A stretch of 64,000 nucleotides of DNA from Sycon ciliatum (taxonomy: Eukaryota > Porifera > Calcarea > Leucosolenida > Sycettidae): assembly GCF_964019385.1 (NCBI RefSeq), contig NC_088655.1:17846690-17910689 (forward strand). Reading direction: 5' to 3'. Each line of letters opens with the position of its first letter. The stretch's first letter is position 1. Below are positions 2,458 through 52,140 of this stretch, piece after piece. A program made the position numbers and the translations under genes. The notes beneath the pieces were generated by a model. The model had not been told where the DNA came from, ran no database searches, and saw nothing but the letters and a program-made list of their open reading frames with translations.

Positions 2458-2809
2458 GACATACCTAGCACATTGTAGTCTGGCGTTGGACTTAGGAGAG
2501 TGCGATTGCTCGATGAGTGCAATTTTAAAGTTGCTTAGATGAATGAGAGCAGAGTGTGTTTTGGATATCAAATATGGCACCGGCCAGTAGCCAAGACCTC
2601 AAAACAATGCAGGTCATATCTTGCGCATTTACCGGTATACATTAGATCAGGGGCTTGACTAACATGACTCAACTAAATTACGGTTCACAACCATAAACAA
2701 CATGAAACGACATGCGCACAAATGCGAGGTGGGACAAATAACAATCAGATAGTTACTTTGAATGGGATTATAGGAACAATCCAACTTGAACAATGTTGTT
2801 TGTGCTGTA

Positions 2810-3120
2810 AAAACAATAGGAGGACAGAGGAAGTGTTTTTACTCAGAGTTTCACGCACTAAGCGATCATCAGAAAACAGTAATTGGAAATCTGGATCAGT
2901 ATTGGTTTATATCCTCACAAAGCAAAGTGTAAATAGCTGCAGTGCAAAGCGTGAATGACAGCAGTGGTGAAAGGTGACAACCACTGGAGCTGGTTGTCTC
3001 TTACTTAAAATAAGGTGTTGGCTGTAGCTGGTTTAAGTCTGTCCTCCTATTGTTTGAACCAGCTCTACCACTCGGTATTGAGCACTCTCTTGGACAGCCT
3101 GGAACCTCTCTGTTTTGTTT
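2810..3120. mobile_element. 311-bp insertion with 13-bp direct repeats
   Basis: The insertion interrupts the POU 3'-flank module. TGTTTGTGCTGTA flanks it at 2797-2809 and 3121-3133, a likely target-site duplication. It contains the inverted pair AATAGGAGGACAG (2815-2827) and CTGTCCTCCTATT (3039-3051). Related sequence occurs at 40086-40290, where the two parts are arranged head to tail instead of inverted. Confidence 0.55.
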
Positions 3121-3221
3121 TGTTTGTGCTGTATGTTTTTTAAAACTCCCCGCATGAGTTTTCAGGCGATCGAGATGTCCATCATAATAATATTAGAAAC
3201 TCGGGTATTGAGCCATTAATA

Positions 3222-3398
3222 AATGTAGAAAAGAAAAAGAACATATGGAAACGAGTAAAGAATGTGTCACTACTCTGTGAGTTTAGTGCCTAGTTGTTGC
3301 ACTTTCTGACTGTATTATAGTATCTAGTTACAGTGGTGGAGAGTTACTCTTAATTCGTTTCCATTATGTTCTTTTTCTTTTCTCCATTAATAATATTT
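3222..3398. mobile_element. Short A/T-rich MITE, copy 1
   Basis: The ends GAAAAGAAAAAGAACATA and the inverted TATGTTCTTTTTCTTTTC enclose about 100 bp containing GTGCCTAGTTGTTGCACTTT. Copies lie at 11389-11566, 24688-24850 and 28660-28885. Three of the four occupy the same place in the 3' flank of truncated POU copies, so they were co-duplicated. There is no coding capacity. Confidence 0.6.
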
Positions 3399-3453
3399 GA
3401 TTTTGATTTACAAATTTTCAATTCCTTCAGGAAAATTCCCGCCCAGGTTTTCG

Positions 3454-3720
3454 TTATTCAGACTCAGAATCCACAGAAATATCCTCTTCATTTTCATCGC
3501 GATCTTCTTCTCTTTGGTCTTGTGAATCTTTGGATTTGCTGGTGCTACATTCACTGCGCGGTTGAGTTCGGGGTGCTCTTCTAGCATTCTTTTTGAACCG
3601 TGTATAGCAACGCCAATTCTGTATGGTTTTTGCCCTTACGGCAAAACTGTTTGCCAATTCGGCTACATTTTGTGCAGATGGCCAATGATCTTGAGCAAAT
3701 TCATCCGTCAGAACAGCATG
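3454..3720 (-). pseudogene. Truncated POU-homeobox copy: homeodomain and tail only
   Basis: The minus-strand translation covers most of a homeodomain (HAVLTDEFAQDHWPSAQ...ELANSFAV...IQNW), the basic RTQPRSECSTSKS segment and an acidic tail ending in DSESE before TAA. Helix 3 is damaged. The motif WFxNxR seen in the intact copies is WRCYTR here, so Phe49 and Asn51 are lost. Homology to the intact genes stops abruptly at about 3720 and is replaced by an unrelated module (3745-3897: ...TACTCGAAGAGTTCATTTC...). That module adjoins the fragments at 11621 and 24918 and also occurs alone at about 27975-28115. It is a non-functional fragment. Confidence 0.8.
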
Positions 3721-3904
3721 CTCAACGAAGTCGCACCAACTTCGTCTTCACGTGTTACTCGAAGAGTTCATTTCATTTATTTCACCCATAGACCATACGT
3801 TTCATTCTTTGCGAATGGGTTTACTCACAAAGCATATAGAGTGAAACGAGAAAGTAATACCCGTAGCAATACTTATCTTGCTAGTGAGTACTGCAGCGCC
3901 TAAA

Positions 3905-4219
3905 CGGTGGGAGGTGAGTAGATCAGACCCACCACCAAGTGGTCAAAGACCGAAATCCCATTAGATGCATCCATGTTACCCTTGTGCCAGGCCACGAGTT
4001 CCCAATTAACTGTGGGTCGCAGCACGGCTGGAAAAATTCCTTCCGCTTCCAAGCAGGACTTGAACCTGGTACCCTCTGTTTCTCAATCATGGTCTTAGAC
4101 CATCCCACTATGCCTGCCTGCCTAGCTGCATCTGCGCCTTTGATCCTAGAGGGTGGTGGCGTTCCCACGGCGGATGCGGAAAACTCGGCTTCCAGCCGAG
4201 TCTCACGCGAACCGTGAAA
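3905..4219 (-). mobile_element. tRNA-derived SINE family A, rearranged copy
   Basis: It contains the same tRNA-like head as the copies at 4994, 8891, 12803 and 28162 (A-box-like GGCATAGTGG, B-box GGTTCAAGTCC on the minus strand, about 4046-4122). The roughly 97-bp end segment that normally lies at the left edge is instead on the right (4123-4219) and inverted. This inverted, permuted layout is unique in the window. Confidence 0.6.
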
Positions 4220-4286
4220 TTTATTTTTTATTTTAGTGAGTACTGTTCTACCTACATGTGCATGCAGTTGTTTCACATACTTGAAG

Positions 4287-4990: not shown

Positions 4991-4993
4991 CAA

Positions 4994-5932: not shown

Positions 5933-7609
5933 TTATTCGGACTCAGACTCTTCTGAAGTATCGTCTTCATCTTCATCGAGATCTTCCACTCTTCGGTCTT
6001 GTGAATCTTGCGATTTGCTGGTGCTATATTTCCTGCCCGGTTGAGTTCGGGGTGCTTTTCTAATATTCTTCCTGGCCCGCTGATTGGCAAACCATTTTCG
6101 TATGTTTTTTGTCCCGACGGCAAAATGCTTAGCCAATTCGGCTAACCTTTGTGTAGATGGCCAATGATCTTGATCAAACTCATTCGTCAGAACACCATAC
6201 TGATCCTTTGAAAATAGGTTGTGGGCTCGGCCACTTCGCAATTTGGTAGTACTTGTATCTCGTGGGGCACTAGCGTTCATGTCTACGTCATCTAGCCATG
6301 CTTTGAATATTTGGTACAACGAATTCATTGTAGCGTCACAATATAAACGCCTGTCGAACATGCTGATAGATGCCCGATTTATTGGAAATTTGGCGCCATA
6401 GGATTTGCAGAGTATCGACGCGAGTTTTTCTTGCGAAATATTTGCCCGTTCCCTTGCTGTTTTGAGAGCCTTGCGAAACGCCTTATGATCATAACTCAAT
6501 AAATCTGTCTTTGCCGTCGAAGAAGAGTGATCCAATGCATTTGGTATCGGGCGATTTAGGGATGATCTGTAATCTCTTGTTGTCTGCACATGCGAAGCCT
6601 CCTCGCTGTTTTGCTGTTGTGATGTACTCAAGGCGAAAGAACAAGCAATCACAGGTAAACTAGAAGGTGGATCTGTTTGTGTTGTAAATAATCTTCTGTT
6701 GGCTGATGGCGGATATGGGGATGCTCCATAGCGCCTTTTTCTCTCCGTATGAGAAATATACTCACGGTTTTGCTGTTGCAAGTTACTGACGGCCGAAGAA
6801 GAAGCATAACCCTGTAAAGCAGATGGTGTATCGTGCTGCGCTGAACTGCGGGCATTCGATATGCTTCTATGGTCTTGGGAGCAAGATGCGGATGCTGTAT
6901 AATTCCTTGTTCTGGGAACAAGGGAAACGTTTTCGGAGTAATGCTGCCACTGGTGATGCTCCTGCTCTGGATTGAGAGAGGAATTATACGAGATGCCTTC
7001 TAGTCGCTCTCTTGCTCCATGATGCTGAGTAGGAGTCCTAGAAGCAATAGCAGGCTGTGTAAGGTAAGAGCCACTGCTAGAACTGGCATATTCCACTTGC
7101 TGCAAGCCAGACGAACGAGATACAGATACGGACCCACTTGCAGGTGATAGCTCCGAACCAATGGTCACATCGGGTTCGACGGGTCTGGAAGTGAAGTAGT
7201 TTGTTTCGGTTTGAGCTGGCCGGGGCCCATTCAGCCAACGGGAAATTTCTTGATCGTCGTTGGCAACTTGCTTCCAATCCAATGCAATTTTCTCAGCAAA
7301 ATCTAGCGGTTTGTCTTTGGAGTACTGTCGTGTCTCGATCTTTTCCAGCACGGCAGTAAGCTCCTTTCGCAGGGGATACGAATCCCAGGGACGTCGATCA
7401 CAGTTGTGCTCCATTTCCAGGCTAAGCTTTGATGGACAATTCGATGACGTTGGTATCGCCATAGATGTGCTTGATGGGTGATTGAAGTGTGATGTGGAAT
7501 CTGGTATGATCTCAGTGCTGGGCGACGATGTCCTGCTCTTTGCTGTTGAAGTTGAAGACTTGATCCAAGAAGGGACACCTGTCGCCGTTCGTGGTGAATG
7601 GTTAGCCAT
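5933..7609 (-). CDS. POU-homeobox protein, intact copy A (558 aa)
   Basis: This is a probable nuclear sequence-specific DNA-binding transcription factor. Residues 373-443 match a POU-specific domain: F-x-K-A-L-K-x-x-R, then SQE, SYGAKF, SISMFD, and MNSLYQ..KAWLDD, lined up with the canonical FAK..K..R, TQ, LYG..F, ISRFE and M..L...WL.D. Residues 459-518 form a homeodomain with L16, F20, I45, W48, F49, N51 and R53 conserved; residue 47 is Lys and residue 50 Ala, unusual for POU proteins (usually Val and Cys). The linker is about 15 residues. Residues 1-372 are Ser/Gln-rich and contain imperfect repeats of about 50 residues (around 263-307 and 316-353, with a weaker one before them). Residues 526-558 form an acidic tail (DLDEDEDD). 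The ATG at 7609 is chosen because the same MA(N/D) start is shared with the other copies and an in-frame stop lies just upstream. CTTTCAG at 7619-7625 could be a 3' splice site of a 5'-UTR intron. No canonical AATAAA is obvious just after the stop. Expression is unknown; it could still be a young pseudogene. Confidence 0.85.
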   Translation of the reverse strand: MANHSPRTATGVPSWIKSSTSTAKSRTSSPSTEIIPDSTSHFNHPSSTSMAIPTSSNCPSKLSLEMEHNCDRRPWDSYPLRKELTAVLEKIETRQYSKDKPLDFAEKIALDWKQVANDDQEISRWLNGPRPAQTETNYFTSRPVEPDVTIGSELSPASGSVSVSRSSGLQQVEYASSSSGSYLTQPAIASRTPTQHHGARERLEGISYNSSLNPEQEHHQWQHYSENVSLVPRTRNYTASASCSQDHRSISNARSSAQHDTPSALQGYASSSAVSNLQQQNREYISHTERKRRYGASPYPPSANRRLFTTQTDPPSSLPVIACSFALSTSQQQNSEEASHVQTTRDYRSSLNRPIPNALDHSSSTAKTDLLSYDHKAFRKALKTARERANISQEKLASILCKSYGAKFPINRASISMFDRRLYCDATMNSLYQIFKAWLDDVDMNASAPRDTSTTKLRSGRAHNLFSKDQYGVLTNEFDQDHWPSTQRLAELAKHFAVGTKNIRKWFANQRARKNIRKAPRTQPGRKYSTSKSQDSQDRRVEDLDEDEDDTSEESESE

Positions 7610-7620
7610 ATGAACGTCCT

Positions 7621-11620: not shown

Positions 11621-11886
11621 TTATTCGGACTTAGAATTTACAGAAATATCCTCTTCATTTTCATCCCGATCTTCCTCTCTTTGGTCTTGCGAATCTTTGG
11701 AGTTGCTGGTGCTACATTCACCGCGCGGTTGAGTGCGGGGTGCTTTTCTAGAATTATCTTAGGACCGTTGATAGCAGCGCCAATTCCGTATGGTTTTTGT
11801 CCTTACGGCAAAACTGTTTGCGAATTCGACTACACTTTGTGTAGATGGCCAATGACCTTGAGCAAATTCATCCGTCAGAACAGCAT
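11621..11886 (-). pseudogene. Truncated POU-homeobox copy in duplication B
   Basis: This is the homologue of 3454-3720: acidic tail, basic segment and partial homeodomain, further damaged by small frame changes so that no frame covers it all. It stops at the same breakpoint, after GAACAGCATGCTC, and is followed by the same foreign module. It is non-functional. Confidence 0.75.
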
Positions 11887-12109
11887 GCTCGACGAAGTCG
11901 CAAAAACTTCTTCTTCACATGTTACTCGAAGCGTTCATTTCATTTATTTCACCCATAGACCATACGTTTCATTCTTTGCGAATGGGTTTACTCACAAAGC
12001 TAATCGAGTGAAACGAGAAAGTAATACCCGTAGCAATATTTGTCTTGCTTGCGAGTACTGTTCAGCCTACATGTACATGCAGTTGTTTCACATACTTGAG
12101 GACGGTTGA

Positions 12110-13740: not shown

Positions 13741-15312
13741 TTATTCGGACTCAGACTCTTTTGAAGTATCCTCTTCATCTTCATCGAGATCTTCCACTCT
13801 TCGGTCTTGTGAATCTTGCGATTTGCTGGTGCTATATTTCCTGCCCGGTTGAGTTCGGGGTGCTTTTCTAATATTCTTCCTGGCCCGCTGATTGGCAAAC
13901 CATTTTCGTATGTTTTTTGTCCCGACGGCAAAATGCTTAGCCAATTCGGCTAACCTTTGTGTAGATGGCCAATGATCTTGATCAAACTCATTCGTCAGAA
14001 CAGCATACTGATCCTTTGAAAATAGGTTGTGGGCTCGGCCACTTCGCAATTTGGTAGTACTTGTATCTCGTGGGGCACTAGCGTTCATGTCTACGTCATC
14101 TAGCCATGCTTTGAATATTTGGTACAACGAATTCACTGTAGCGTCACAATATACACGTCTTCTAGAATTTCTGATAGAGTTCCTAGCGTTTGGAAATTTG
14201 GCACCATAGGATATGCAGAGTATGGATACGAGTCTTTCTTGTGAAATGTTTGCCCGTTCTCTTGCTGTTTTGATCAATTCGCAAAAGGCCTTATGATCAT
14301 AACTCAATATATCTGTGTTTGCCGTCGGAGAACAGCGACCCATTGTACTTGGTTGTGGGAGACATGGGGATGATCCGTATTCGCTTGTTGTCTGCCCAAG
14401 GGAAGCGTTCTCGGTGTTGTGTTGTTGTGATGTACTCAAGGGTAAAGAGGAAGAAATCCCAGGTAAACTAGAAGGCGTATCTCTTTGTGTTGTCAATAAT
14501 ATTTTATAGGCTGGTCGGGGATATGGGGATGCTGCATGACGCCTTGTGCTCTCCGTATGAGAAACATACTCACGGTTTTGCTGTTGCGAGTTACTGATGG
14601 CCGAAGAAGAAGCATATCCCTGTAAAGCAGATGGTGCATCGTGCTGCGCTGAACTGCGGGCATTTAATCTACGTCTTTGGTCTTCGGAGCCAGATGCGGA
14701 TGGTGTGTATTTCCTTGTTCTCGGAACAAGGGAAACGTTCTCTGAGTAATGCTGCCACTGGTGTTGCTCCTGCTGTGGATTGAGTGAGGAATTATACGAG
14801 ATGCCTTCTAGTCGCTCCTTTGCTCCATGATGCGGAGTAGGAGTGTTTGACGCAAAAGCAGATGATAGCTCTGAACCAATAGTTTCATCGGGTTCGACGC
14901 GTCTGGAAGTGAAGTCGTTTGTTTCGGTTTGAGTTGACCGGGGCTTATTCAGCCAACGAGCAATTTCTTGAACGTCGTTGACAACTCGCTTCCAATCCGA
15001 TGCGTCGTCTTCAGCAACATCGAGCGGTTTGTCTTTGTAGTATTGTCGTGTCTCAATCTTTTGAAGCACGGCCGTAAGCTCATTTCGCAGGGGATACGAG
15101 TCCAAGTCATTCGCCAGTTCCAGGCTAAGCCTTGGTGAACTATTCGATGACTTTGGTATCGCCATGGATGTGGTTGATGGATGACTGAAATATGATGGGG
15201 CACTAGTTACGATCTCAGTGCTGGCCAACGATGTTCTGTTCTTTGCTGTTGCAGTTGAAGACGAGCCGCAAGAAGAGACACCGGTCGCAGTTCGTTGTGG
15301 TTGATCAGCCAT
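13741..15312 (-). CDS. POU-homeobox protein, intact copy B (524 aa)
   Basis: This is a paralogue of the 5933-7609 gene with the same architecture: a Ser/Gln-rich N-terminus with imperfect repeats, a POU-specific domain at about residues 339-409, a homeodomain at about 425-484 and an acidic tail. The homeodomain is almost unchanged from copy A (W48 F49 A50 N51, K47). The POU-specific recognition-helix region is different: SIRNSRRR replaces SISMFDRR, so the canonical IS.F(E) core is lost, although SQE and SYGAKF remain. The open frame continues 58 codons upstream to another ATG at 15486. I start at 15312 because MAD(Q/E) is the start shared with the other copies, and a candidate splice acceptor (CTTTCAG) lies about 10 bases upstream. 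Compared with copy A, some 30 residues of the N-terminal region are missing. DNA binding through the POU-specific domain may be altered. Confidence 0.8.
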   Translation of the reverse strand: MADQPQRTATGVSSCGSSSTATAKNRTSLASTEIVTSAPSYFSHPSTTSMAIPKSSNSSPRLSLELANDLDSYPLRNELTAVLQKIETRQYYKDKPLDVAEDDASDWKRVVNDVQEIARWLNKPRSTQTETNDFTSRRVEPDETIGSELSSAFASNTPTPHHGAKERLEGISYNSSLNPQQEQHQWQHYSENVSLVPRTRKYTPSASGSEDQRRRLNARSSAQHDAPSALQGYASSSAISNSQQQNREYVSHTESTRRHAASPYPRPAYKILLTTQRDTPSSLPGISSSLPLSTSQQHNTENASLGQTTSEYGSSPCLPQPSTMGRCSPTANTDILSYDHKAFCELIKTARERANISQERLVSILCISYGAKFPNARNSIRNSRRRVYCDATVNSLYQIFKAWLDDVDMNASAPRDTSTTKLRSGRAHNLFSKDQYAVLTNEFDQDHWPSTQRLAELAKHFAVGTKNIRKWFANQRARKNIRKAPRTQPGRKYSTSKSQDSQDRRVEDLDEDEEDTSKESESE

Positions 15313-16114
15313 ATGAACGTCCTGAAAGATATCCGTTATTTGTTCTCTGCAACCGCAGCACAATACAAATAGAAGACAAATTGTGCAGTGAGAGAAATTT
15401 TTGGAATTTGGTGTTCGAAGAGAACCAACTACAACGGATAGAAAGACAGTTGTTAAGCTACGGGCTTGAAAGTTGTCTACGGGCATTGAAGACTGCAGCC
15501 TGGACTAACGCGTTTTGCGCGTCCTCAGGGGGGAATATTTTACAGCTTCTGTTGCTAAAGTTAAGGCTGAAAAAATTAATCACAAGTGAAAGGTGGTCGC
15601 TGTTAGTAACACTTGGTAGAAAAGAATCACAACTGGATTGTGATACGATTTCGCACTGAATCACCTCGTCCTTGGAATTTCAGCAACTTGTGCATGCTGA
15701 AACGCGTCAGTACGTTCAAGGGATCGTTGTTCTCACATGTGCGTATCGCTAAATCATTTAATAATCTAAAACTTTTCATATTTGCACCACGCAGTCTTAC
15801 CTTAGTAATTATAGCATTCGAATTCACACTTGTCCAGCTTGACACACCGTCAGCTATCGTTACTTCTGTGTACTTGTTACCTACCATAGTCGATATACTT
15901 CATATATTATACGTTTTAGGTTTCTCAAGTCTGGCACCTTTATTCACTTCTATGTGTACGAGGTCGCCAGTTGTCCAAGCTGTTTTAGGCTGCATATCCT
16001 TGCGCTATTGGTATCACATTCATTGCCGAGAGCCCTCAAAGTCTGTGCTCACCTTCGAGGAGCAACGCTGACTCATTCTTCACTCTGGTGTGTCACGAGG
16101 TGTTTGTCGCGCTG

Positions 16115-17929: not shown

Positions 17930-18382
17930 TGACATAAATGAGCAGAGCGTGTAGTGGATATCAAACTCAAACTCAAATGGGGAAAGGCAAATCAAATCAA
18001 ATATGGCACCGGCCGATAACCAAGTGCGCAAAACAATGCAGGTCATATCATGCGCATTAACCGGTATACAGTACATGTAGACTAGGGACTTGACTAACAT
18101 GACTCAAACGTATACGAAATTGGCGTTCACAACCATAAACAACATGATACGGCATGCGAACAAATGTGACCTGAAACAAATAACAATCAGACAGTTACTT
18201 AGAATGGGATTATGGGAACAATCCTACTGGAACAATGTTGTTTGTGTTGTATGTTTTTTGAAAATCAGTTTTCAGGCGAGAGAGATGTCCATCATCATTA
18301 TGGACATTGGTTATTGATTAACAAATTTCCAATTACTTTAGGAACATGTCCGCGAAGGTATTTGTCATTCGGAGTCAGACTC

Positions 18383-20779
18383 TTACGGAGTATCCTCTTC
18401 ATCTCCATCGAGATCTTCAACTCTTTGGTCTTGTGAATCTTGCGATTTGCTGGTGCCACATTCACTGCCCGGTTGAGTTCGGGGTGCTCTTCGAATATTC
18501 TTCTTGGACCGTTGATTGTCAAACCAATTTCGTATGGTTTTTGTCGTTACGGCAAAACTGTTAGCCAACTCGGCTAACTTTTGAGCAGATGGCCAATGAT
18601 CTTGAGCAAATTCATCCGTCAGAACAGCATACTGATACTGTAAAAGTAGCTTGCAGGCTCGGCCACTTCGCAATTTGGCAGTACTTGTATCTCGTGGGGG
18701 ATTATAGGGGAAGTATACCCTAAAATCAAATTTTCACCAGTTGTAGTCTTCGGGGTGCTGAGTCGACTGGTCTTGGTCCGAGGAAGCTGAGACGCTCCCT
18801 TCCTCCTTTATTCCCAATCGAACTCGCGCACTTCCACCGAAACTGGGTGACTGCGCCCTACTAGATGGGGATTTGTATGCAAAATGTCACTAAAAGCGCC
18901 ATTTCGTTCTTATAAAAGCACGGATGACCGCGATTGGCCCATATGTTGTAGTCTTTTGGACGCTGAGTCGACTGGTTTTGGTCCGAAAAGGCTGCGATGC
19001 AGCGTTCCTCCTTTATTCCCAATCGAACATGGTTGAACAAGCGGTCACGTGCTCCTGCGTACACCAGTCAGCTGGTCACCGTGCCTGCAGGGTACAACTT
19101 ACTAGCCTGTTTGACCTTTTTTGGGTGCAGTCCTGTCACTCGAGTTGAACTCGAGTTGAACCTTGGTGGGAAAGTTGTCGCCTGCTGGCGCGGTGACCAG
19201 GTGATTTGGGCACCCAGGAGCACGTGACCGCTTGTTCAACCATGTTCGATTGGGAATAAAGGAGGAACGCTGCATCGCAGCCTTTTCGGACCAAAACCAG
19301 TCGACTCAGCGTCCAAAAGACTACAACATATGGGCCAATCGCGGTCATCCGTGCTTTTATAAGAACGAAATGGCGCTTTTAGTGACATTTTGCATACAAA
19401 TCCCCATCTAGTAGGGCGCAGTCACCCAGTTTCGGTGGAAGTGCGCGAGTTCGATTGGGAATAAAGGATGAAGGGAGCGTCTCAGCTTCCTCGGACCAAG
19501 ACCAGTCGACTCAGCACCCCGAAGACTACAACTGGTGGAAATTTGATTTTAGGGTATACTTCCCCTTTAACGTTCCTGTCTACGTCATCAAGCCATGCTT
19601 TGAATATAGGGTACAACGAATTCATTTTAGCATCAGCAAATAAACGTCTTCTAAAATTTCTGATAGAGTGCTCAGTGTTTGGAAATTTGGCACCGTAGGA
19701 TATGCAGAATATGGATGCGAGTCTTTTTTGTGAAATGTTTGCCCGTTCTCTTGCTGTTTTGACCAATTCGCAGAAAGCGTTATGATCATAACTCAACGAA
19801 TCTGCCTTTGCCGCCGGAGAAGAGTGATCCATTGTACTTGGTAGTAGGAGATTTGGGGATGATCCGTAATCGCTTGTTGTCTGCCCAAGCGAAGCGTTCT
19901 CGCTGTTTTGCTGTTGTGATGTACTCAAGGCTAAAGATGAAGCAATCCCAGGTAAACTAGAAGGCGTATCTCTTTGTGTTGTCAATAATCTTCTATAGAC
20001 TGGTGGGGGATATGGGGATGCTGCATGACGCCTTGTGCTCTCCGGTTGAGAAACATACTCACGGTTTTGCTGTTGCGAGTTACTGACGGCCGAAGAAGAA
20101 GCATATCCCTGTAAAGCAGATGGTGTATCGTGCTGCGCTGAACTGTGGGTATTTGATCTACTTCTTTGGTCTTTGGAGCCAGATGCGGATGGTGTGTAAT
20201 TCCTTGTTCTCGGAACAAGTGAAACGTTCTCTGAATAATGCTGCCACTGGTGTTGCTCCTGCTGTGGATTGAGGGAGAAATTAAACGAGATGCCTTCTAG
20301 TCGCTCTTTTACTCCATGATGCTGCTTGAAGCAAAAGCAGATGATAGCCCTGAACCAATAGTTACATCGGGTTCGACGCGTCCGGAAGTGAAGTAGTTTG
20401 TTTCCGTTTGAGTTGGCAGCCAACGGTCAATTTCTTGAACGTCGTTGGCAACTCGCTTCCAATCCGATGCGTCGTCTTCAGCAACATCGAGCGGTTTGTC
20501 TTTGGAGGATTGTCGTGTCGTGACCTTTTGAAGCACGGCCGTAAGCTCATTTCACAGATCATACGAGTCCAAGTCATGCTCCAGTTCCAGGCTTAGCCTT
20601 GGTGAACTATTCGATGACGTTGGTATCGCCATGGATGTGCTTGATGGATGACTGAAATGTGATGGGGCACTAGTTACGATCTCAGTGCTGGCCGACGATG
20701 TTCTGTTCTTTGCTGGTGCAGTTGAAGACTGGACGCAAGAAGAGACACCAGTCGCAGTTCGTGGTGGTTCGTCAGCCAT
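18383..20779 (-). pseudogene. POU-homeobox copy C, split by a foldback element
   Basis: It starts with the shared MAD(E) ATG at 20779. The frame hits a stop at 20552, where the intact copies have Arg-Asn-Glu. It reopens to about 20309 and then shifts by one base at about 20330. A long open stretch follows with the Ser/Gln-rich region and a POU-specific domain (SQKR, SYGAKF, SIRNFRRR, MNSLYP..KAWLDD). After KAWLDDVDRN the frame enters the palindromic element 18702-19570. Beyond it the homeodomain is intact (IRNWFDNQRSKKN, with Asn47 and Asp50), and the tail ends early at a TAA at 18383, inside the acidic region. At least three defects make a single full-length product impossible. A separate homeodomain-only product is conceivable but unsupported. 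Confidence 0.85.
18702..19570. mobile_element. Long palindromic foldback element inside POU copy C
   Basis: The ends read TTATAGGGGAAGTATACCC and its near-exact complement. The two arms are almost perfect inverted repeats of about 350 bp, separated by roughly 130-150 bp. Each arm itself contains two copies of an approximately 84-bp segment (GTAGTCTT...GCTGAGTCGACTGGT...TTTATTCCCAATCGAAC). It sits between the POU-specific domain and the homeodomain; about six bases of the host sequence (CACTAG) are missing at the junction. It has no transposase. Confidence 0.75.
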
Positions 20780-31856: not shown

Positions 31857-32431
31857 TTTTCATTTCTTGTTGGCTGAGTTTTACGAAATAAACAAGAAAT
31901 GTTGTTCTTTTCGAACGAACAGGTCTGGGACCGAGGTCCAACAGTTTTGGGCGTACTGGTACGCCGCAGTCCCTCATCTTTTGTTTTCTTGCTTTGCAAG
32001 CTGGTTTCCCACCCTCCCTCCCAATGAGGAGCTTTGTACGGTTTTCACACACAGATCATGATTGTGAGAGCGCTGCGTTACTCTCTCTCTCTGATAGATT
32101 TCTCAATATTGCTGCTACAATACAGGTTATAAGTTGTGCGAGGTGTGGAATGTGCGGATGCTCTGTCGATTGCTCTGCTTTTCTGTATGATTCACCTCGC
32201 ACAATGCTGTCACTCTATGAGGTGTTGTTTTCGCTGGACGTTTTTCTGTCTGTGTTCTGGACACAAGAGTGCAACCAGCCTTGCTGTGGCTGTCCCCCTG
32301 TGGCTGTCCCCCCGCAGTTGTTATTCTGTGATGAGTGTGTGAGTGTGTGTGTGTGTGTGTGTATGTGTGAGAGAGAGAGAGTGTGTGTGTGTGAGTATGT
32401 GTGCAGTACTGACGTGTGAGTGAGAAAAGAA
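31857..32431. mobile_element. Insertion splitting the homeodomain of POU copy D
   Basis: 575 bp interrupts the homeodomain between the GATG and GCC of GATGGCCAATG. It contains a CTCTCTCTCT run and a (TG)n tract at about 32335-32400. No element ends are recognised. Confidence 0.5.
32335..32400. repeat. (TG)n/(GA)n microsatellite
   Basis: GTGTGTG runs with an embedded GAGAGAGAGA block. Confidence 0.9.
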
Positions 32432-32618
32432 GGCCAATGATCTTGAGCAAACTCATCCATAAGAACAGCATACTGATACTGTGAAAGTAGCTTGCGGGCT
32501 CGGCCACTTCGCAATTTGGTAGTACTTGTATCTCGTGGGGCACTAGCGTTCCTGTCTACGTCATCTAGCCATGCTTTGAATATTGGGTACAACGAATTCA
32601 TTTTAGCGTCACTATACG

Positions 32619-32967
32619 GAGAAAGGAGCAGTACTCCCACGTAATATCTTACATCAGATGCCGTCTCTCATTTGACCTGTTGCGATCATCCATCATGTGT
32701 TTGCGGGGTTCACGGGGTCTTTTCCGTGAGCGATCGGTTCGGCATCCGGAGTCTGCTGAGCTGGTTGTTGCTGAGGCCCAGGTTGCTCGCATGTGAGAAT
32801 CTATAAATTGCAGCAGATTATTTTTATTATAAATACTGGACATGGATATTGAATTAAACTGTACTCAGTGACTTTTTACATTTTACAGGCTACGTTTTAT
32901 TGTTATTGTTATTATTATTGTAAAGCTTTCCTTTTGAAAAAAGAAAAAAAAACTAAAAAAAACTAAA
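32619..32967. mobile_element. Retroposed insertion with A-rich end and 8-bp duplication
   Basis: ACTATACG flanks the insertion at 32611-32618 and 32968-32975. The right end is A-rich (AAAAAAGAAAAAAAAAC, AAAAAAAAC), typical of reverse-transcribed RNA; the 8-bp duplication is short for LINE-driven events. The source of the RNA is not recognised. Confidence 0.55.
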
Positions 32968-33402
32968 ACTATACGTACACCTTTCAAACCTGCTGATAGA
33001 GTTCACATTGTTTGAAAATTCGGCACCATAGGATTTGCAGAGTATCGATGCGAGTCCTGCTTGTGTAATGTTTGCCCGTTCTATTGCTGTTCTTACCACC
33101 TTGCAAAACGCCTTATGATCATAATTCAACGAACCTGTCTTTGCCGTCGGAGAAGAGTGATCCATTGTATTTTTGTAATGGGCGATTTGGCGATGATCCG
33201 TACTCGCTTGTTGTGTGCCCAAGGGAAGCGTTCAGGCTGTTTGCTGTTGTGACGTACTCAAGCCTAAAGAAGAATCAATCACAGGTAAACTATAAGGTTC
33301 ATCTGGTTGGGTTGTTAATAATCTTCACCAAGCGGTCATTCGAAGAGTGTTGACGGGTGAACTGTCGATCTGACACCTTTTGGGTATCCGTCGTCAGTCG
33401 GG

Positions 33403-40435: not shown

Positions 40436-40870
40436 CTCCTCCGTCAGTACAACAGACTGATCCTCGAAAAGTGGCTTGCGGGCTCGGCCACTTAGCAATA
40501 TAACTGTTAGCCAATTCGGCTTACTTATGTGTAAATGGCCAATGATCTTGAGCAAACTCATCCGTCAGAACAAAAATATATAACTGTCAGCCAATTCGCC
40601 TGATTTTTGTGTAGATGGCCAATGATCTTGAGCAAACACATCCGTCAGAACAGCATACTGATCCTAGAGAAGCAGTGATGGACAAAGGATGTTGGAAATG
40701 TAATGTGATTTATGTGAAGAATATTTACAAGAGGAACGACTACTTGTCGGCCGGACTCGCACTACTCAAAAGTATCCTCTTCATCTTCATCGAGATCTTA
40801 CACACTCGCTGCAAGCCAGGCGAACACGATACTGCTACAGACCCACTTGCAGATGATAGCTCTGAACCAA
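40436..40870 (-). pseudogene. Scrambled POU-homeobox relic
   Basis: Three partial, tandem copies of homeodomain helix 1-2 sequence (complement of GGCCAATGATCTTGAGCAAAC, at about 40536, 40616 and a first remnant at 40440-40500) are followed at 40760-40870 by the acidic-tail sequence fused directly to an N-terminal-region piece (GSELSSASGSVAVSCS). It is not coding. Confidence 0.6.
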
Positions 40871-42297: not shown

Positions 42298-45200
42298 GGA
42301 GGTATGTAACCAGCAAATAGAGATCGTTGTTGTCCGCTATGATGTCCAGCGTGAATCGAGCGTGGGAATGAGAACGCGGCAACCCGGGCAGGCTGCACAG
42401 TACCCAGCTCCAGAGGCTGCAGGCATCTGCGCTTTTAATATTCCATATCCTGGAGGTATGTGACCAGCAAATAGAGATCATTGTTGTCCGCTATGATGTC
42501 CAGCGTGAATCGAGTGTGGGAATGAGAACGCGGCAACCCTGGCAGGCTGCACAGTACCCAGCTCCAGAGGCTGCAGGCATCTGCGCTTTTAATATTCCAT
42601 ATCCTGGAGGTATGTGACCAGCAAATAGAGATCATTGTTGTCCGCTATGATGTCCAGCGTGAATCGAGCGTGGGAATGAGAACGCGGCAACCCGGGCAGG
42701 CTGCACAGTACCCAGCTCCAGAGGCTGCAGGCATCTGCGCTTTTAATATTCCATATCCTGGAGGTATGTGACAAGCAAATAGAGATCATTGTTGTCCGCT
42801 ATGATGTCCAGCGTGAATCGAGGGTGGGAATGAGAACGCGGCAACCCGGGCAGGCTGCACAGTACCCAGCTCCAGAGGCTGCAGGCATCTGCGCTTTTAA
42901 TATTCCATATCCTGGAGGTATGTAACCAGCAAATAGAGATCATTGTTGTCCGCTATGATGTCCAGCGTGAATCGAGCGTGCGAATGAGAACGCGGCAACC
43001 CGGGCAGGCTGCACAGTACCCAGCTCCAGAGGCTGCAGGCATCTGCGCTTTTAATATTCCATATCCTGGAGGTATGTGACCAGCAAATAGAGATCATTGT
43101 TGTCCGCTATGATGTCCAGCGTGAATCGAGCGTGGGAATGAGAACGCGGCAACCCGGGCAGGCTGCACAGTACCCAGCTCCAGAGGCTGCAGGCATCTGC
43201 GCTTTTAATATTCCATATCCTGGAGATATGTGACCAGCAAATAGAGATCATTGTTGTCCGCTATGATGTCCAGCGTGAATCGAGCGTGGGAATGAGAACG
43301 CGGCAACCCGGGCAGGCTGCACAGTACCCAGCTCCAGAGGCTGCAGGCATCTGCGCTTTTAATATTCCATATCCTGGAGGTATGTGACCATCAAATAGAG
43401 ATCATTGTTGTCCGCTATGATGTCCAGCGTGAATCGAGCGTGGGAATGAGAACGCGGCAACCCGGGCAGGCTGCACAGTACCCAGCTCCAGAGGCTGCAG
43501 GCATCTGCGCTTTTAATATTCCATATCCTGGATGTATGTGACCAGCAAATAGAGATCATTGTTGTCCGCTATGATGTCCAGCGTGAATCGAGCGTGGGAA
43601 TGAGAACGCGGCAACCCGGGCAGGCTGCACAGTACCCAGCTCCAGAGGCTGCAGGCATCTGCGCTTTTACGATTCCATATCCTGGAGGTATGTGACCAGC
43701 AAATAGAGATCATTGTTGTCCGCTATGATGTCCAGCGTGAATCGAGCGTGGGAATGAGAACGCGGCAACCCGGGCAGGCTGCACAGTACCCAGCTCCAGA
43801 GGCTGCAGGCATCTGCGCTTTTAATATTCCATATCCTGGAGGTATGTGACCAGCAAATAGAGATCATTGTTGTCCGCTATGATGTCCAGCGTGAATCGAG
43901 CGTGGGAATGAGAACGCGGCAACCCGGGCAGGCTGCACAGTACCCAGCTCCAGAGGCTGCAGGCATCTGCGCTTTTAATATTCCATATCCTGGAGGTATG
44001 TGACCAGCAAATAGAGATCATTGTTGTCCGCTATGATGTCCAGCGTGAATCGAGCGTGGGAATGAGAACACGGCAACCCGGGCAGGCTGCACAGTACCCA
44101 GCTCCAGAGGCTGCAGGCATCTGCGCTTTTAATATTCCATATCCTGGAGGTACGTGACCAGCAAATAGAGATCATTGTTGTCCGCTATGATGTCCAGCGT
44201 GAATCGAGCGTGGGAATGAGAACGCGGCAACCCGGGCAGGCTGCACAGTACCCAGCTCCAGAGGCTGCAGGCATCTGCGCTTTTAATATTCCATATCCTG
44301 GAGGTATGTGACCAGCAAATAGAGATCATTGTTGTCCGCTATGATGTCCAGCGTGAATCGATCGTGGGAATGAGAACGCGGCAACCCGGGCAGGCTGCAC
44401 AGTACCCAGCTCCAGAGGCTGCAGGCATCTGCGCTTTTAATATCCCATATCCTGGAGGTATGTGACCAGCAAATAGAGATCATTGTTGTCCGCTATGATG
44501 TCCAGCGTGAATCGAGCGTGGGAATGAGAACGCGGCAACCCGGGCAGGCTGCACAGTACCCAGCTCCAGAGGCTGCAGGCATCTGCGCTTTTACGATTCC
44601 ATATCCTGGAGGTATGTGACCAGCAAATAGAGATCATTGTTGTCCGCTATGATGTCCAGCGTGAATCGATCGTGGGAATGAGAACGCGGCAACCCGGGCA
44701 GGCTGCACAGTACCCAGCTCCAGAGGCTGCAGGCATCTGCGCTTTTAATATTCCATATCCTGGAGGTATGTGACCAGCAAATAGAGATCATTGTTGTCCG
44801 CTATGATGTCCAGCGTGAATCAAGCGTGGGAATGAGAACGCGGCAACCCGGGCAGGCTGCACAGTACCCAGCTCCAGAGGCTGCAGGCATCTGCGCTTTT
44901 AATATTCCATATCCTGGAGGTATGTGACCAGCAAATAGAGATCATTGTTGTCCGCTATGATGTCCAGCGTGAATCGAGCGTGGGAATGAGAACGCGGCAA
45001 CCCGGGCAGGCTGCACAGTACCCAGCTCCAGAGGCTGCAGGCATCTGCGCTTTTAATATTCCATATCCTGGAGGTATGTGACCAGCAAATAGAGATCATT
45101 GTTGTCCGCTATGATGTCCAGCGTGAATCGAGCGTGGGAATGAGAACGCGGCAACCCGGGCAGGCTGCACAGTACCCAGCTCCAGAGGCTGCAGGCATCT

Positions 45201-46763
45201 GCGCTTTTAATATTCCATATCCTGGAGGTATGTGACCAGCAAATAGAGATCATTGTTGTCCGCTATGATGTCCAGCGTGAATCGAGCGTGGGAATGAGAA
45301 CGCGGCAACCCGGGCAGGCTGCACAGTACCCAGCTCCAGAGGCTGCAGGCATCTGCGCTTTTAATATTCCATATCCTGGAGGTATGTGACCAGCAAATAG
45401 AGATCATTGTTGTCCGCTATGATGTCCAGCGTGAATCGAGCGTGGGAATGAGAACGCGGCAACCCGGGCAGGCTGCACAGTACCCAGCTCCAGAGGCTGC
45501 AGGCATCTGCGCTTTTAATATTCCATATCCTGGAGGTATGTGACCAGCAAATAGAGATCATTGTTGTCCGCTATGATGTCCAGCGTGAATCGAGCGTGGG
45601 AATGAGAACGCGGCAACCCGGGCAGGCTGCACAGTACCCAGCTCCAGAGGCTGCAGGCATCTGCGCTTTTAATATTCCATATCCTGGAGGTATGTGACCA
45701 GCAAATAGAGATCATTGTTGTCCGCTATGATGTCCAGCGTGAATCGAGCGTGGGAATGAGAACGCGGCAACCCGGGCAGGCTGCACAGTACCCAGCTCCA
45801 GAGGCTGCAGGCATCTGCGCTTTTAATATTTCATATCCTGGAGGTATGTGACCAACAAATAGAGATCATTGTTGTCCGCTATGATGTCCAGCGTGAATCG
45901 AGCGTGGGAATGAGAACGCGGCAACCCGGGCAGGCTGCACAGTACCCAGCTCCAGAGGCTGCAGGCATCTGCGCTTTTAATATTCCATATCCTGGAGGTA
46001 TGTGACCAGCAAATAGAGATCATTGTTGTCCGCTATGATGTCCAGCGTGAATCGAGCGTGGGAATGAGAATGCGGCAACCCGGGCAGGCTGCACAGTACC
46101 CAGCTCCAGAGGCTGCAGGCATCTGCGCTTTTAATATTCCATATCCTGGAGGTATGTGACCAGCAAATAGAGATCATTGTTGTCCGCTATGATGTCCAGC
46201 GTGAATCGAGCGTGGGAATGAGAACGCGGCAACCCGGGCAGGCTGCACAGTACCCAGCTCCAGAGGCTGCAGGCATCTGCGCTTTTAATATTCCATATCC
46301 TGGAAGTATGTGACCAGCAAATAGAGATCATTGTTGTCCGCTATGATGTCCAGCGTGAATCGAGCGTGGGAATGAGAACGCGGCAACCCGGGCAGGCTGC
46401 ACAGTACCCAGCTCCAGAGGCTGCAGGCATCTGCGCTTTTAATATTCCATATCCTGGAGGTATGTGACCAGCAAATAGAGATCATTGTTGTCCGCTATGA
46501 TGTCCAGCGTGAATCAAGCGTGGGAATGAGAACGCGGCAACCCGGGCAGGCTGCACAGTACCCAGCTCCAGAGGCTGCAGGCATCTGCGCTTTTAATATT
46601 CCATATCCTGGATGTATGTGACCAGCAAATAGAGATCATTGTTGTCCGCTATGATGTCCAGCGTGAATCGAGCGTGGGAATGAGAACGCGGCAACCCGGG
46701 CAGGCTGCACAGTACCCAGCTCCAGAGGCTGCAGGCATCTGCGCTTTTAATATTCCATATCCT
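42298..46763. repeat. 154-bp satellite, 29 tandem units
   Basis: Units begin GGAGGTATGTGACCAGCAAAT and recur every 154 bp with very few substitutions; 29 units fill the interval exactly. The monomer contains TGATGTCCAGCGTGAATCGAGCG, GGCAGGCTGCACAGTACCCAG and GGCTGCAGGCATCTGCGC. Because 154 is not a multiple of three, the 66-codon minus frames in every unit overlap the next unit in a shifted frame and are not genes. The high identity points to recent expansion or ongoing homogenisation. Confidence 0.95.
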
Positions 46764-47066
46764 GGATTTCGCTCGGCTGCAGGCATCTGCGCTTTTAATA
46801 TTCCATATCCTGGATTTCCTTCGGCTGCAGGCATCTGCGCTTTTAATATTCCATATCCTGAATTTCCCTCGGCTGCAGGCATCTGCGCTTTTAATATTCC
46901 ATATCCTGGATTTCCCTCGGCTGCAGGCATCTGCGCTTTTAATATTCCATATCCTGGATTTACCTCGGCTGCAGGCATCTGCGCTTTTAATATTCCATAT
47001 CCTGGATTTCCCTCGGCTGCAGGCATCTGCGCTTTTAATATTCCATATCCTGGATATCCCTCGGCT
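46764..47066. repeat. 48-bp tandem array derived from the satellite end
   Basis: Each unit is the final 40 bp of the 154-bp monomer (GGCTGCAGGC...ATATCCTGGA) plus an 8-bp TTTCCCTC-like joiner, in about six copies. Period 48 keeps frame, so both strands are open: plus reads AAGICAFNIPYPGFPS repeats, minus reads GYGILKAQMPAAEGNP repeats. Translation is not supported. Confidence 0.9.
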
Positions 47067-49235: not shown

Positions 49236-49399
49236 AGGCGGTGGTGCGCTTTCGTCACAGGCAGCGCAGCGGTCTTCTTGCTGCACAGCCGTCTTGCAGA
49301 ACCTGAGGCATAACTCGGCAGTCGTTGAGGACAGCCAGTTGTGGTCACATTATTAAAAACGGGCGGAACTACAGTTGCAGTTGTCTGTCCTGAGGTCCT

Positions 49400-50580
49400 T
49401 GTCTATTCACTGCCTGGTCGAGTTCGGGCTGCTTTTCTAATATACTTCTTGGCCCGTTGACAGTCAAACCACTTCCGTATGGTTTTTGTGATCCATTTTC
49501 CTTGGTAATGGGCGTTTTGAGGATGATCCGTAATCGCTTGTTCTCTGCCCAAGCGAAGCGTTCTCGCTGTTTTGCTGCTGTGATGTACTCAAGGCTAAAG
49601 AAGAAGCAATCCCATGTAAACCAGAAGGCGTATCTGTTTGTGAAGAGTGATCCATTTTACTTGGTAATGGACGTTTTGAGGATGATCCGTAATCGCTTGT
49701 TCTCTGCTCAAGCGAAGCGTTCTCGCTGTTTTGCTGTTGTGATGTACTCAAGGCTGAGGAAGAAGCAGTCCCAGGTAAACCAGAAGGCGTATCTGTTTGT
49801 GTCGCAAAACGCCTTGTGATCATAACTCAATAAATCTGCCTTTGCCGTCGGAGAAGAGTGATCCATTTTATTTGGCAATGGGCGTTTGGAGGATGATCCG
49901 TAATCGCTTTTTCTCTGCCCAAGCGAAGCGTTCTCGCTGTTTTGCTGTTGTGATGTACTCAAGGCTAAAGAAGAAGCAATCCCATGTAAACCAGAAGGCG
50001 TAGCTGTTTGTGTCGCAAAACGCCTTTTGATCATAACTCAATAAATCTGCCTTTGCCGTCGGAGAAGAGTGATCCATTTTACTTGGTAATGGGCGTTTTG
50101 AGGATGATCCGTAATCGCTTGTTCTCTGCCCAAGCGAAGCGGTCTCGCTGTTTTGCTGTTGTGATGTACTCAAGGCTAAGGAAGAAGCAATCCCATGTAA
50201 ACCAGAAGGCGTATCTGTTTGTGAAGAGTCATCCATTTTACTTGGTAATGGGCGTTTTGAGGATGATCCGTAATCGCTTGTTCTCTGCCCAAGCGAAGCG
50301 TTCTCGCTGTTGCGAGTTAATGACGGCCGAAGGAAAAGCATATCCCTGTAAAGCAGTATCGTGCTGCGCTGTACTGCGGGCATTCGATCTACTTCTATGG
50401 TGTTGGGAGCCAGATGCGAATGCTGTGTAATTCCTTGTTCTAGGAACGAGGGAAACGCTCTCTCGGTAATGCTCCTGCTGTGGATTGAGGGAGGAATTAT
50501 ACGAGATGCCTTCTAGTCGCTCTTTTGCTCCATGATGCAGAGTAGGAGTGCTAGAAGCAATAGCAGGCTGTGCAAGGTGC
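49400..50580 (-). pseudogene. POU-homeobox relic with amplified linker repeats
   Basis: A short homeodomain helix-3 piece (49405-49485) is fused directly to the Ser/Gln-rich linker. That linker segment is repeated five times, starting at 49490, 49649, 49860, 50071 and 50230 (159, 211, 211 and 159 bp apart). The 159-bp unit is 53 codons (QTDTPSGL, ALSTSQQQNSENASLGQ, RTSDYGSS). The 211-bp units add 52 bp of POU-specific-proximal sequence and break the frame. Upstream of 50330 it continues into ordinary N-terminal linker sequence. The POU-specific domain is lost. It is non-functional. Confidence 0.75.
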
Positions 50581-50589
50581 TGAAGGCAA

Positions 50590-51150
50590 TTTGCAGAAAC
50601 GTTGGAATAATTATTGTGAAATGAGTTTGACTCTTGCAGTGTTAAGGGAAGAGAGCGTGTGTACTCTACTCAGCTGTTTATGAAACTGCAGGAAGCCTCC
50701 CCACTTTTATTTCTATGTATTGTTGTTCGAAGAGTATCGTCTTGTGATCTGTCTGTCTGTGTACCCTTCAGGTATCCACTTTAAAAGACCACGGCTCGCT
50801 ACAAGGACCCTAACTCTATCGAACGTCAGACAGACTATCTGACTAGGCACCGACGCTAGCAATGGACTTCATTCTTTTCACATCTTCGGCGAAGGTTATA
50901 TCAGCTACAAGCCAGTCTGTGTACCAGTCTATGTAGGATTTGCACCAGTAGTTCACAAAACGACGGATTGTCTGTGTGTTTAACGACGTGTCATCGGAAC
51001 TGGAGTTGATACTGCGGGTAGAAAAACTGTTCTAAGTGACGTCGAAGGATTCCATCATTCAATTGGAAAAATTTACGAAACTAGTATCTTCTATTGACCT
51101 CCCACAGCTCTCCGGTAGTGGAGATGTAATACCGATTTTTGTATTTTTGT
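50590..51150. other. No gene found
   Basis: Short frames only, with no recognised repeat. Confidence 0.4.
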
Positions 51151-51159
51151 ATTGTGTTT

Positions 51160-51545
51160 TATTATTATACTTGGGCATTCCCAACAGACCCTACGGTCTT
51201 CTCACAGGGTGCCCAAGATGAATGAATTGCTTAAGTTCCTGGCGAAATGAACTGGGGATATGATTTGTGCGAATGGATTCGGGAAGCGCATTAAAGCGGT
51301 CAACACCAAGGAATGAAATATATTTGAATCCAGCCTGATCTTGTACAATGGGTAAAGAAAGGAACTTGGTCGCGGGTGACTCTATCTGTGTGAGCGCAGT
51401 CGCGGCGAAGGGAGAACATGTCAGAGAGGAGTGAACTGCAGATATTGTGGATGCAACGGAACACGAAGAATATGGACTTGTCTAAGCTAATGATGTGGTA
51501 CCGCTCAAGCATGTACAGTGGAACCTGTCTAAGACGACCGCTCAT
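51160..51545 (-). pseudogene. LINE reverse transcriptase 3' end fragment
   Basis: The minus translation has IISLDKSIFFVFRCIHNICSSLLSDMF and, after a frame change, FNALPESIRTN and FRQELKQFIHLG, the typical C-terminus of CR1/L2-like reverse transcriptases. It ends in HLGHP and an AT-rich tail near 51160. No catalytic motifs remain. Confidence 0.6.
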
Positions 51546-51967
51546 GGGACCTTCAAAGCGTGGTGTCTGTTACCAGGTGGTCTTCTTATACAGGGTTAAT
51601 TGACTAGAAATAGCATCAATTGACGCCGATCGGCAAACTCTCGCTCACAGCCATCACCAGCAAATACAATAAATAAATTTGCAGCAAAATGAAGACCTGA
51701 GTTCACAAAATGAAGCCCTCAGTGGGCGCGAAACGCTACTACTGCGCAGGCTCTCTAACTGTACGATTGGAATATTGAAAGTTCTAAGATATTTTGTGAG
51801 TTTGGAGCTTGTTTGAAAATGCACATGCCGCATGCGATGACGATTACAGATTAACCTTCATCGTAAATGATTTAGGCAATGGTAGTTAAACAAAAGTCGA
51901 ACAGAAATTCTGCAGTTTGAACATGAAACTACTTAGCTTTATCCGAACCTGGGTCACAGTTGATGAC

Positions 51968-52140
51968 TTTCGGTATCAAACCCTTCAAAACTTTCCTCTT
52001 CATCTTCATCTAGATCTTCCACTCCATGGTATTGTGACTTTTTCGATTTGCTGATGCAACATTCACTTAACGGTTGAGGAATGAGAAAGGGGTGTATTTC
52101 GAGAATTCTGTTTGCGCTATTGATTGCAGTTAGGCATTTC
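51968..52140 (-). pseudogene. Degenerate POU-homeobox tail relic
   Basis: The minus strand still encodes the PLSECCISKSKKSQ and VEDLDEDEEESFEG remnants of the basic segment and acidic tail. The homeodomain part beyond is unreadable. It is the most diverged copy and the farthest from the cluster. Confidence 0.6.

Follow-up and report, generated by a model that had tools for sequence, protein, structure and literature searches.

POU genes are regarded as deeply conserved developmental switches, and the proteins of the canonical classes I-VI carry a POU-specific domain followed by a homeodomain. The residues Gln44, Thr45 and Arg49 of the former and Cys50 and Asn51 of the latter are typical of POU recognition but do not define the class. 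Six POU families are distinguished in total (PMC4245813), and the gene numbers reported for five well-studied animals range from 4 to 16 (oyster 4, fly 5, sea urchin 4, amphioxus 7, human 16), which agrees with a sequence-only reading of the DNA described here in which POU genes were said to be few in animals (PMC5322547). Tandem homeobox arrays that evolve by birth and death are reported for the ETCHbox genes of eutherian mammals (rabbit LEUTX, Obox/TPRX2), with gene conversion, 45-79% pseudogenes and positive selection, some of whose sites are in the arm and the helix of the homeodomain (PMC8208926).

The window, a stretch of 64 kb from the calcareous sponge Sycon ciliatum, contains a series of POU-homeodomain copies that all lie on the minus strand in tblastn searches with a 558-aa protein as the query. 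This protein is encoded by an open gene at 5933-7609 (tblastn match 5936-7609) and consists of an N-terminal region, a POU-specific domain (6281-6499, 73 aa), a homeodomain (6056-6241, 62 aa, recognition helix WFANQR) and an acidic tail. The second open gene is a 581-aa ORF at 13741-15486 with a tblastn match at 13744-15312, the start common to its relatives being 15312; in DNA it is 99-100% identical to the first gene over the homeodomain and tail and 78-85% identical over the POU-specific domain. In a disrupted long copy (18368-20779) the two domains are separated by an inserted palindromic element (18702-19570) with 399-nt arms that are 97% complementary. The remaining matches comprise a homeodomain-tail relic of 60% identity (3457-3723), a second such relic (11681-11890), homeodomain fragments (24978-25186), three pieces of a broken copy (31702-33324), short homeodomain fragments lying mostly inside an 80-bp tandem repeat (40509-40663) and a broken copy with a middle part that has expanded into tandem repeats of 159 and 211 bp (49412-50579). 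Seven relics of the homeodomain-tail kind lie downstream of array genes, at a distance of about 2-2.5 kb. The two full genes, the disrupted copies and the fragments on a single strand had all been read from the letters and are recovered by tblastn; of the range proposed for them, 2458-52140, matches cover 3457-50579 and the outermost ends gave no protein match.

The earlier assignment of a POU-specific domain and a homeodomain is borne out by Pfam, phmmer and the predicted fold. Pfam places the homeodomain of the 5933-7609 gene above its cut-off (E 7.8e-10) and the Pou match of the same gene (E 0.0023, 18.3 bits) under the cut-off of 27; the 13741-15486 gene has a homeodomain (E 5.6e-10) and no Pou match in the Pfam scan, and 19482-20423 on the minus strand has a Pou match under the cut-off (E 4.4e-4, 20.6 bits). 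HMM support for the POU-specific domain at full threshold comes from outside the window, where 5 of the 7 group B and C relatives scanned whole pass both cut-offs (L050, L057, L071, L086 and L087), with L072 falling short for Pou and L058 for Homeodomain. Against PDB sequences, phmmer aligns the POU3-type chain 7xrc_C across both domains (residues 372-517, E 1.1e-5), and the top 29 ranked matches of the predicted fold are all POU proteins, 28 of them with E of 0.001 or less; the best-matching PDB chains belong to classes 3 and 2. A chance origin of these matches is excluded because of the E-values together with the genome-wide clustering. Of the canonical POU loci fetched, the class III/II-like gene L034 was the only one to match the window protein. 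The POU-specific domain stands N-terminal to the homeodomain in one frame, and the canonical recognition residues are not those of the array family: among 20 open genes Gln44 is present in 3, Thr45 in 1, Arg49 in 9, Cys50 in 1 and Asn51 in only 10. The array family thus appears to be a divergent POU-homeodomain family, assigned by architecture only.

On contig C14 an array spans about 0.53 Mb; by a hand-merged list it comprises 38 long copies and 9 relics, and the window occupies one of its ends. In at least 19 of these long copies both domains are open, and one further open copy is found on contig C3. Among the matches scored (78 of 151 candidates), 94 of 95 protein matches fall on C14, and every match listed between 17.36 and 17.90 Mb is on the minus strand. 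Pfam Pou matches with E up to 10 lie within 2.7 Mb of C14 in 62 of 81 cases and form three diverged groups. The clustered expansion noted earlier was correct but understated, and the view of a multigene family with turnover through duplication, truncation and insertion is supported. Gene DNA is confined to one C14 segment and the C3 copy among 73 DNA matches, from a genome search in which 40 of 2042 candidates were scored. The C3 copy and one array copy have homologous flanking DNA outside the gene; the C3 copy arose by segmental duplication and is not a retrocopy, because the shared flanks extend beyond the gene. The titles and abstract openings listed in literature searches (POU expansion, homeobox selection) describe no large tandem POU array, which is weak evidence that such an array is new to the literature.

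Besides the scale of the array, the second feature that goes beyond the sequence-only reading is the concentration of amino-acid change at DNA-facing residues. In the main set of 20 open genes, comparison of models M2a and M1a gives a 2dlnL of 32.1 for the POU-specific domain (P 1.1e-7) and 28.6 for the homeodomain (P 6.1e-7), with P values of 0.028, 0.57 and 1 for the N-terminal, middle and tail regions outside both domains. The positively selected residues of these genes, POU 43, 44, 45, 49 and 54 and homeodomain 5, 7, 41 and 50, are mostly at DNA-facing positions, although homeodomain 41 and POU 54 are not known as classic base contacts. A predicted helix at 42-49 of the 73-aa POU segment holds or adjoins the selected segment positions 41, 42, 43 and 47. 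The enrichment of selected sites at a list of presumed DNA contacts is significant in the 20 genes (P 4e-5) and in a wider set (P 1.7e-3). This wider set was drawn from 44 distinct POU and 27 distinct homeodomain stretches, matches with gaps or stops having been skipped beforehand, and omits group B (ten POU, three homeodomain) and one stop-bearing homeodomain; it gives a 2dlnL of 39.4 for the resulting 34 POU sequences and 34.8 for the 23 homeodomains, and picks out residue 1 of the POU segment as well. The codon models are the author's own implementation with nucleotide-tree proportions fixed, and the 20-gene run gave numerical warnings. In null simulations, confined to the POU domain, the maximum 2dlnL was 5.58 over 20 runs with one tree and 7.85 over 20 runs with two conflicting trees, against the 32.1 observed. 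Individual sites are less well supported than the model tests: a FEL-type P below 0.05 is reached only at positions 41, 42 and 52 of the POU segment and at positions 9 and 34 of the homeodomain segment, and P exceeds 0.1 at POU segment 43 and 47 and at homeodomain residue 50.

Tree-free counts give a dN/dS of 2.32 for the POU recognition helix against 0.43 for the remainder of the domain, and 1.84 for the homeodomain contacts against 0.83, with dS at 0.12-0.20 across regions and dN/dS of about 0.9 in the N-terminal and middle regions. Residues W48, F49 and R53 of the homeodomain are fixed in 20/20 open genes and residue 50 shows eight types. Residue 51 is canonically Asn, and its absence in half of the genes implies that some array homeodomains may bind DNA abnormally. 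The POU-specific domain and the homeodomain have different histories, and the mosaic pattern among array copies is strong. Group B (12 stretches per domain, less one each because of a stop) backs the POU positions only and is not a full replicate: dN/dS is 1.94 at the five POU positions selected in the 20 open genes and only 0.90 over the whole helix, and a model test of the POU domain (2dlnL 8.04, P 0.018) barely exceeds the recombination null. The homeodomain contacts of group B stand at 1.31 against 0.99, and the model test there is not significant (P 0.13). Group C (loci L071-L074, L086-L091 and L058) was inspected by eye, with an open frame in six. Tandem POU loci on contig C1 show no helix excess (0.88 against 1.37 for the remainder, 4 of 7 loci counted), a weak control because it consists of four genes in which dS is low and the ratio exceeds 1 in the remainder of the domain.

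A tandem birth-and-death array with a flank-sharing copy on C3, a mosaic history and selection at mostly DNA-facing positions is probably best read as a host transcription-factor array that diversifies its DNA targets. Copies would arise by segmental duplication and swap segments through gene conversion, and many would die; we infer that both processes also lie behind the copies within the array. In the open copies both DNA-binding modules would keep their scaffold and the base-reading residues would change under positive selection, which is proposed to yield an array of factors with differing DNA preferences. The selected changes are expected to alter DNA specificity. By analogy with zinc-finger arrays, the most likely driver would be targets of fast-evolving sequence such as transposable elements or satellites in the germline or early embryo.

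A somewhat doubtful alternative is a reproductive or embryonic array of the ETCHbox/Obox kind, shaped by dosage, redundancy and developmental or sexual conflict and targeting host genes. It would account for the strong mosaic pattern and for the interruption of one or both domains in up to half of the 38 long copies, features in keeping with those of ETCHbox. However, the selected homeodomain sites reported for ETCHbox lie chiefly in the N-terminal arm and a single one falls in the recognition helix (PMC8208926), whereas here selection strikes recognition positions of both modules; this points to shifting DNA targets, which is itself compatible with host-gene targets. It is unlikely that the variable positions serve protein-protein or allelic recognition instead of DNA reading, as the loss of Asn51 in 10/20 genes and the selection on homeodomain 41 might suggest, since POU residues 44, 45 and 49 are named as DNA-interacting in Oct4 (PMC4720428) and homeodomain residues 5 and 50 touch DNA in ANTP (PMC11832328). 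Relaxed constraint, in which the array would consist mainly of dying copies with drifting domains, fits the ratio near 0.9 in the N-terminal and middle regions, the stops or frame breaks in many copies and the lack of Asn51 in half of the 20 homeodomains, but is rather improbable because drift does not yield a dN/dS of 2.3 in one part of a domain and 0.43 in the rest of it at similar dS, nor would it be expected to leave three invariant homeodomain residues and so many open copies.

An assembly artefact, with haplotypes or repeats set out as false tandem copies, could be suspected from some pairs with a DNA identity of 98-99% over kilobases (17.853 Mb against 17.569 and 17.751 Mb, 17.364 against 17.687 Mb, and 18.227 against 18.513 Mb). 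This is very unlikely, as 26 of the best 30 protein matches are at most 90% identical to the window gene, array copies differ from one another in indels and flanks, and the diverged groups B and C lie nearby; the sequence-only reading had named a single copy in an independent long-read assembly as the mark of an artefact, and within the present assembly the protein search found many copies. That a mobile element captured a POU gene and spread it is scarcely credible: palindromic elements do lie in and beside copies (relatives of the 18702-19570 element occur on C1, C2 and C7 and in the flank of the C3 copy) and one copy is on a different contig, but the element is also found elsewhere without the POU gene, the scored matches place the gene DNA in a confined array plus one flank-sharing copy and not in scattered copies such as element ends or target-site duplications would mark, and a domain-alignment scan of viral contigs confirmed no relative among 60 pattern matches. 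The whole-genome DNA search (40 of 2042 candidates scored) and the flank comparison thus reject the POU gene as mobile cargo, and the choice left open earlier between a host family and mobile capture is largely settled for the host by the confined segment and the C3 flanks.

The host array may have a further component in an N-terminal block of three predicted helices (7190-7459, minus strand), common to group A copies and to L072 of group C. The block gave no match in the Pfam scan, none convincing among PDB sequences (best E 0.51) and nothing better than E 5.8 in the fold search, and an effector role for it is conjectural.

The known systems resemble the array in part. The array differs from the canonical POU classes, with their few genes, in being a large tandem array with altered recognition residues. 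Unlike ETCHbox genes, which are mammalian and derived from CRX, its genes do not look like CRX homeodomain duplicates but have the POU architecture, with two DNA-binding modules that both carry selected recognition positions. The homeodomain of Odysseus (OdsH) of Drosophila evolves rapidly. This homeobox duplicate is tied to hybrid sterility (PMC10917504) and, as a single unc-4 duplicate and not a POU array, is a loose analogy. With KRAB/FiNZ C2H2 clusters the array shares lineage-specific expansion, selection on DNA-contact residues and a conserved N-terminal sequence that lies outside the domains binding DNA (PMC10547256); contact-residue selection among recent paralogs is found here as an evolutionary pattern, with weaker per-site tests. 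The likeness is of evolutionary pattern only, as the array family has a two-module POU architecture, and Pfam scans of the window genes and seven group B/C relatives found no zinc finger and no KRAB. Contact-focused change is known from zinc-finger arms races and is unexpected in the deeply conserved POU family. Many paralogs with strong contact differences, including the loss of Asn51, represent a natural experiment on POU and homeodomain specificity. It is tentatively suggested, as a plausible analogy, that the array is the POU-homeodomain equivalent of KRAB zinc-finger arrays, an arsenal of regulators on the megabase scale that would chase selfish or satellite DNA through two coupled DNA-reading modules, positive selection and gene conversion, with the conserved N-terminal helical block as a possible effector. 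If so, the POU-homeodomain, like the zinc finger, could be recruited into arms-race style evolution.

The POU-homeodomain array referred to as group A occupies the minus strand of contig C14 between 17.36 and 17.90 Mb, in a Sycon ciliatum assembly of 538 Mb and 313 contigs. It comprises at least 38 long copies and at least 9 relics, totals that were merged by hand with the broken copies at window positions 31702-33324 and 49412-50579 counted as relics. In a protein search of the assembly, in which the best 78 of 151 first-look candidates were scored, 94 of the 95 matches listed fall on C14. Group A is flanked by two diverged groups, B (C14 18.2-18.6 Mb, plus strand, ~30% identical) and C (C14 16.0-16.8 Mb, both strands). 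A search with the Pfam Pou profile (E up to 10, all 81 candidates scored, counted by hand) places 62 of 81 matches, the weakest of which may include some by chance, inside C14:15.96-18.64 Mb (A 23, B 16, C 23). POU genes are described as animal-specific in an excerpt of PMC4245813, and a section of PMC5322547 gives 4 to 16 per genome in five well-studied animals; the sequence-only reading, which had described a clustered expansion of a normally small gene family, is borne out across the assembly.

The window (C14:17846690-17910689) contains two open members, both identified by ORF and Pfam, at 5933-7609(-) (558 aa) and 13741-15486(-) (a 581-aa ORF). Broken copies and relics, found by protein match, span 3457-50579, and every one of them is on the minus strand, as had been noticed. 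One long copy (18368-20779, minus) is disrupted by a palindromic element of ~0.87 kb with long inverted arms (~18702-19570), which lies between the two domains. The first window gene is a POU gene by architecture, as first proposed: its homeodomain scores above the Pfam cut-off and its own Pou domain below it, in PDB the protein matches a POU3-type chain best, across both domains, and POU proteins fill the top 29 ranks when its AlphaFold2 model is compared with PDB, 28 of these matches having E of at most 0.001. The model, built from 24 aligned sequences, is modest (mean pLDDT 73.5, pTM 0.42), which makes the relative placement of the POU-specific domain and the homeodomain unreliable, and has helices where both recognition helices belong. 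Both Pfam cut-offs are passed by five of the seven group B and C members scanned. The same scan shows a doubled POU-specific domain in one group C locus (L071) and a doubled homeodomain in another (L086), which is module duplication within the cluster. The window also contains a minisatellite near the array's end (42298-46766, a 154-bp unit in 29 copies, 98% matches), a reverse transcriptase ORF that leaves the window (62549-64000(+), Pfam RVT_1 E 8.9e-38) and has the appearance of a non-LTR retrotransposon, and a tRNA-Pyl-like gene called by ARAGORN (1552-1624(-)), most likely a false call given an animal genome.

A DNA search with the single open copy on contig C3 and its flanks (best 40 of 2042 candidates scored) gave 73 matches, of which only those to the C14 array and those on C3 involve the gene itself. 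The remaining matches, on C1, C2 and C7, are to the palindromic element in the C3 flank and show 98% similarity across the 0.66 kb contained in the query. Further flank segments are common to the C3 copy and one array copy, so the C3 copy moved by segmental duplication. On the matches scored, the question of a host family or a POU gene captured by a mobile unit is largely settled in favour of the host family. For the window copy of the element a target-site duplication of 3 bp is possible: the alignments of its flanks overlap by that length against the locus L061 and do not overlap against the second window gene. Duplicated blocks extend past the gene: across 4.7 kb, the first gene of the window shares 98.6-98.7% identity with its nearest copies. 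Between the two window genes, identity is 99-100% in homeodomain and tail and 78-85% in the POU-specific domain; the POU tree is rejected for the homeodomain (p-AU 8e-54) and the homeodomain tree for the POU domain (p-AU 6e-5), which implies that segments were exchanged among copies.

Positive selection is favoured by site models in 20 group A genes whose frames are open across both domains, 19 of them on C14 and one on C3. The statistic 2dlnL is 32.1 for the POU-specific domain (omega 3.9 at 14% of sites) and 28.6 for the homeodomain (omega 6.2 at 7% of sites), and the signal is weak or absent elsewhere (N-terminal P 0.028, middle P 0.57, tail P 1). Numerical warnings were raised in this run and none were printed for the wider set, which adds in-frame domains of broken copies and agrees (2dlnL 39.4 for 34 POU sequences, 34.8 for 23 homeodomain sequences). 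In the 20 genes, posterior probabilities above 0.9 fall on POU segment positions 41, 42, 43, 47 and 52 and homeodomain residues 5, 7, 41 and 50; POU 46 and the first POU segment residue exceed 0.95 in the wider set, where POU 47 falls to 0.86. Homeodomain 41 and POU 54 (segment 52) are not known as classic contacts. PDB-match alignment equates POU segment 42, 43 and 47 with Oct residues 44, 45 and 49, listed among the DNA-interacting residues of Oct4 in part of a modelling study (PMC4720428), and residues 5 and 50 of the ANTP homeodomain touch DNA according to an excerpt of PMC11832328. The selected sites are enriched at a partly presumptive list of contacts (POU 27, 44, 45, 49; homeodomain 5, 47, 50, 51, 54), with P 4e-5 for the 20 genes and 1.7e-3 for the wider set.

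Tree-free counting in the 20 genes, with dS 0.12-0.20 in all regions, gives dN/dS of 2.32 for the POU recognition helix (5-95% 1.8-3.6, subsamples of 12 of the 20 genes) against 0.43 for the rest of the domain, 1.84 for homeodomain contacts against 0.83, and 0.94, 0.88 and 0.69 for the N-terminal, middle and tail regions. Null simulations of the POU domain (n=40, half with two conflicting trees) reach a maximum 2dlnL of 7.85, compared with 32.1 observed. Per-site tests are weaker, with P < 0.05 only at POU 41, 42 and 52 and homeodomain segment positions 9 and 34. The contacts form 16 distinct POU motifs, 15 distinct homeodomain motifs and 17 combinations; the scaffold residues W48, F49 and R53 are invariant in all 20 genes and residue 50 takes eight types. 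Residue 51 is N in 10, H in 5, Y in 3 and R in 2; with Asn51 gone from half of the genes, some homeodomains may no longer bind DNA normally.

In group B (11 sequences per domain) POU 20, 42 and 43 are selected (2dlnL 8.04, P 0.018) and site models give P 0.13 for the homeodomain. The dN/dS there is 1.94 at the five POU positions selected in group A, 0.90 for the whole helix against 0.41 for the rest, and 1.31 at homeodomain contacts against 0.99. Recognition helices also differ between group C genes, as judged by eye only. Tandem POU genes on C1 serve as a weak control: in four of the seven loci, with dS 0.05-0.07, the POU recognition helix has dN/dS 0.88 and is nearly fixed, compared with 1.37 in the remainder of the domain. 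In this second, more canonical group (C1:63.63-63.84 Mb; L036-L039, L042-L044, L047), an internal repeat of the linker is amplified and some copies are broken. On C9 (18.888 Mb(-) and 19.079 Mb(+); L032/L033/L040/L041), a gene that combines two POU-specific domains with a single homeodomain occurs as two inverted copies, identical in ORF DNA and ~190 kb apart.

Outside the two domains, group A shares a conserved N-terminal block of ~70-90 residues with a single group C gene, at 41% identity. Three helices are predicted for it (mean pLDDT 69.9), searches of Pfam, PDB sequences and PDB folds gave no convincing match, and it is at most a candidate effector. Ahead of the shared start, several group A frames remain open for another ~55-65 codons and contain a conserved peptide there, possibly because the protein is longer or because a 5-prime exon lies in this stretch.

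By analogy, the pattern of selection in group A resembles that of zinc-finger arrays, for which part of PMC10547256 interprets positive selection at DNA-contacting residues as indicating an arms race against transposable elements. Among homeobox genes, the closest parallel known to us is provided by the ETCHbox arrays, as portrayed in an excerpt of PMC8208926.
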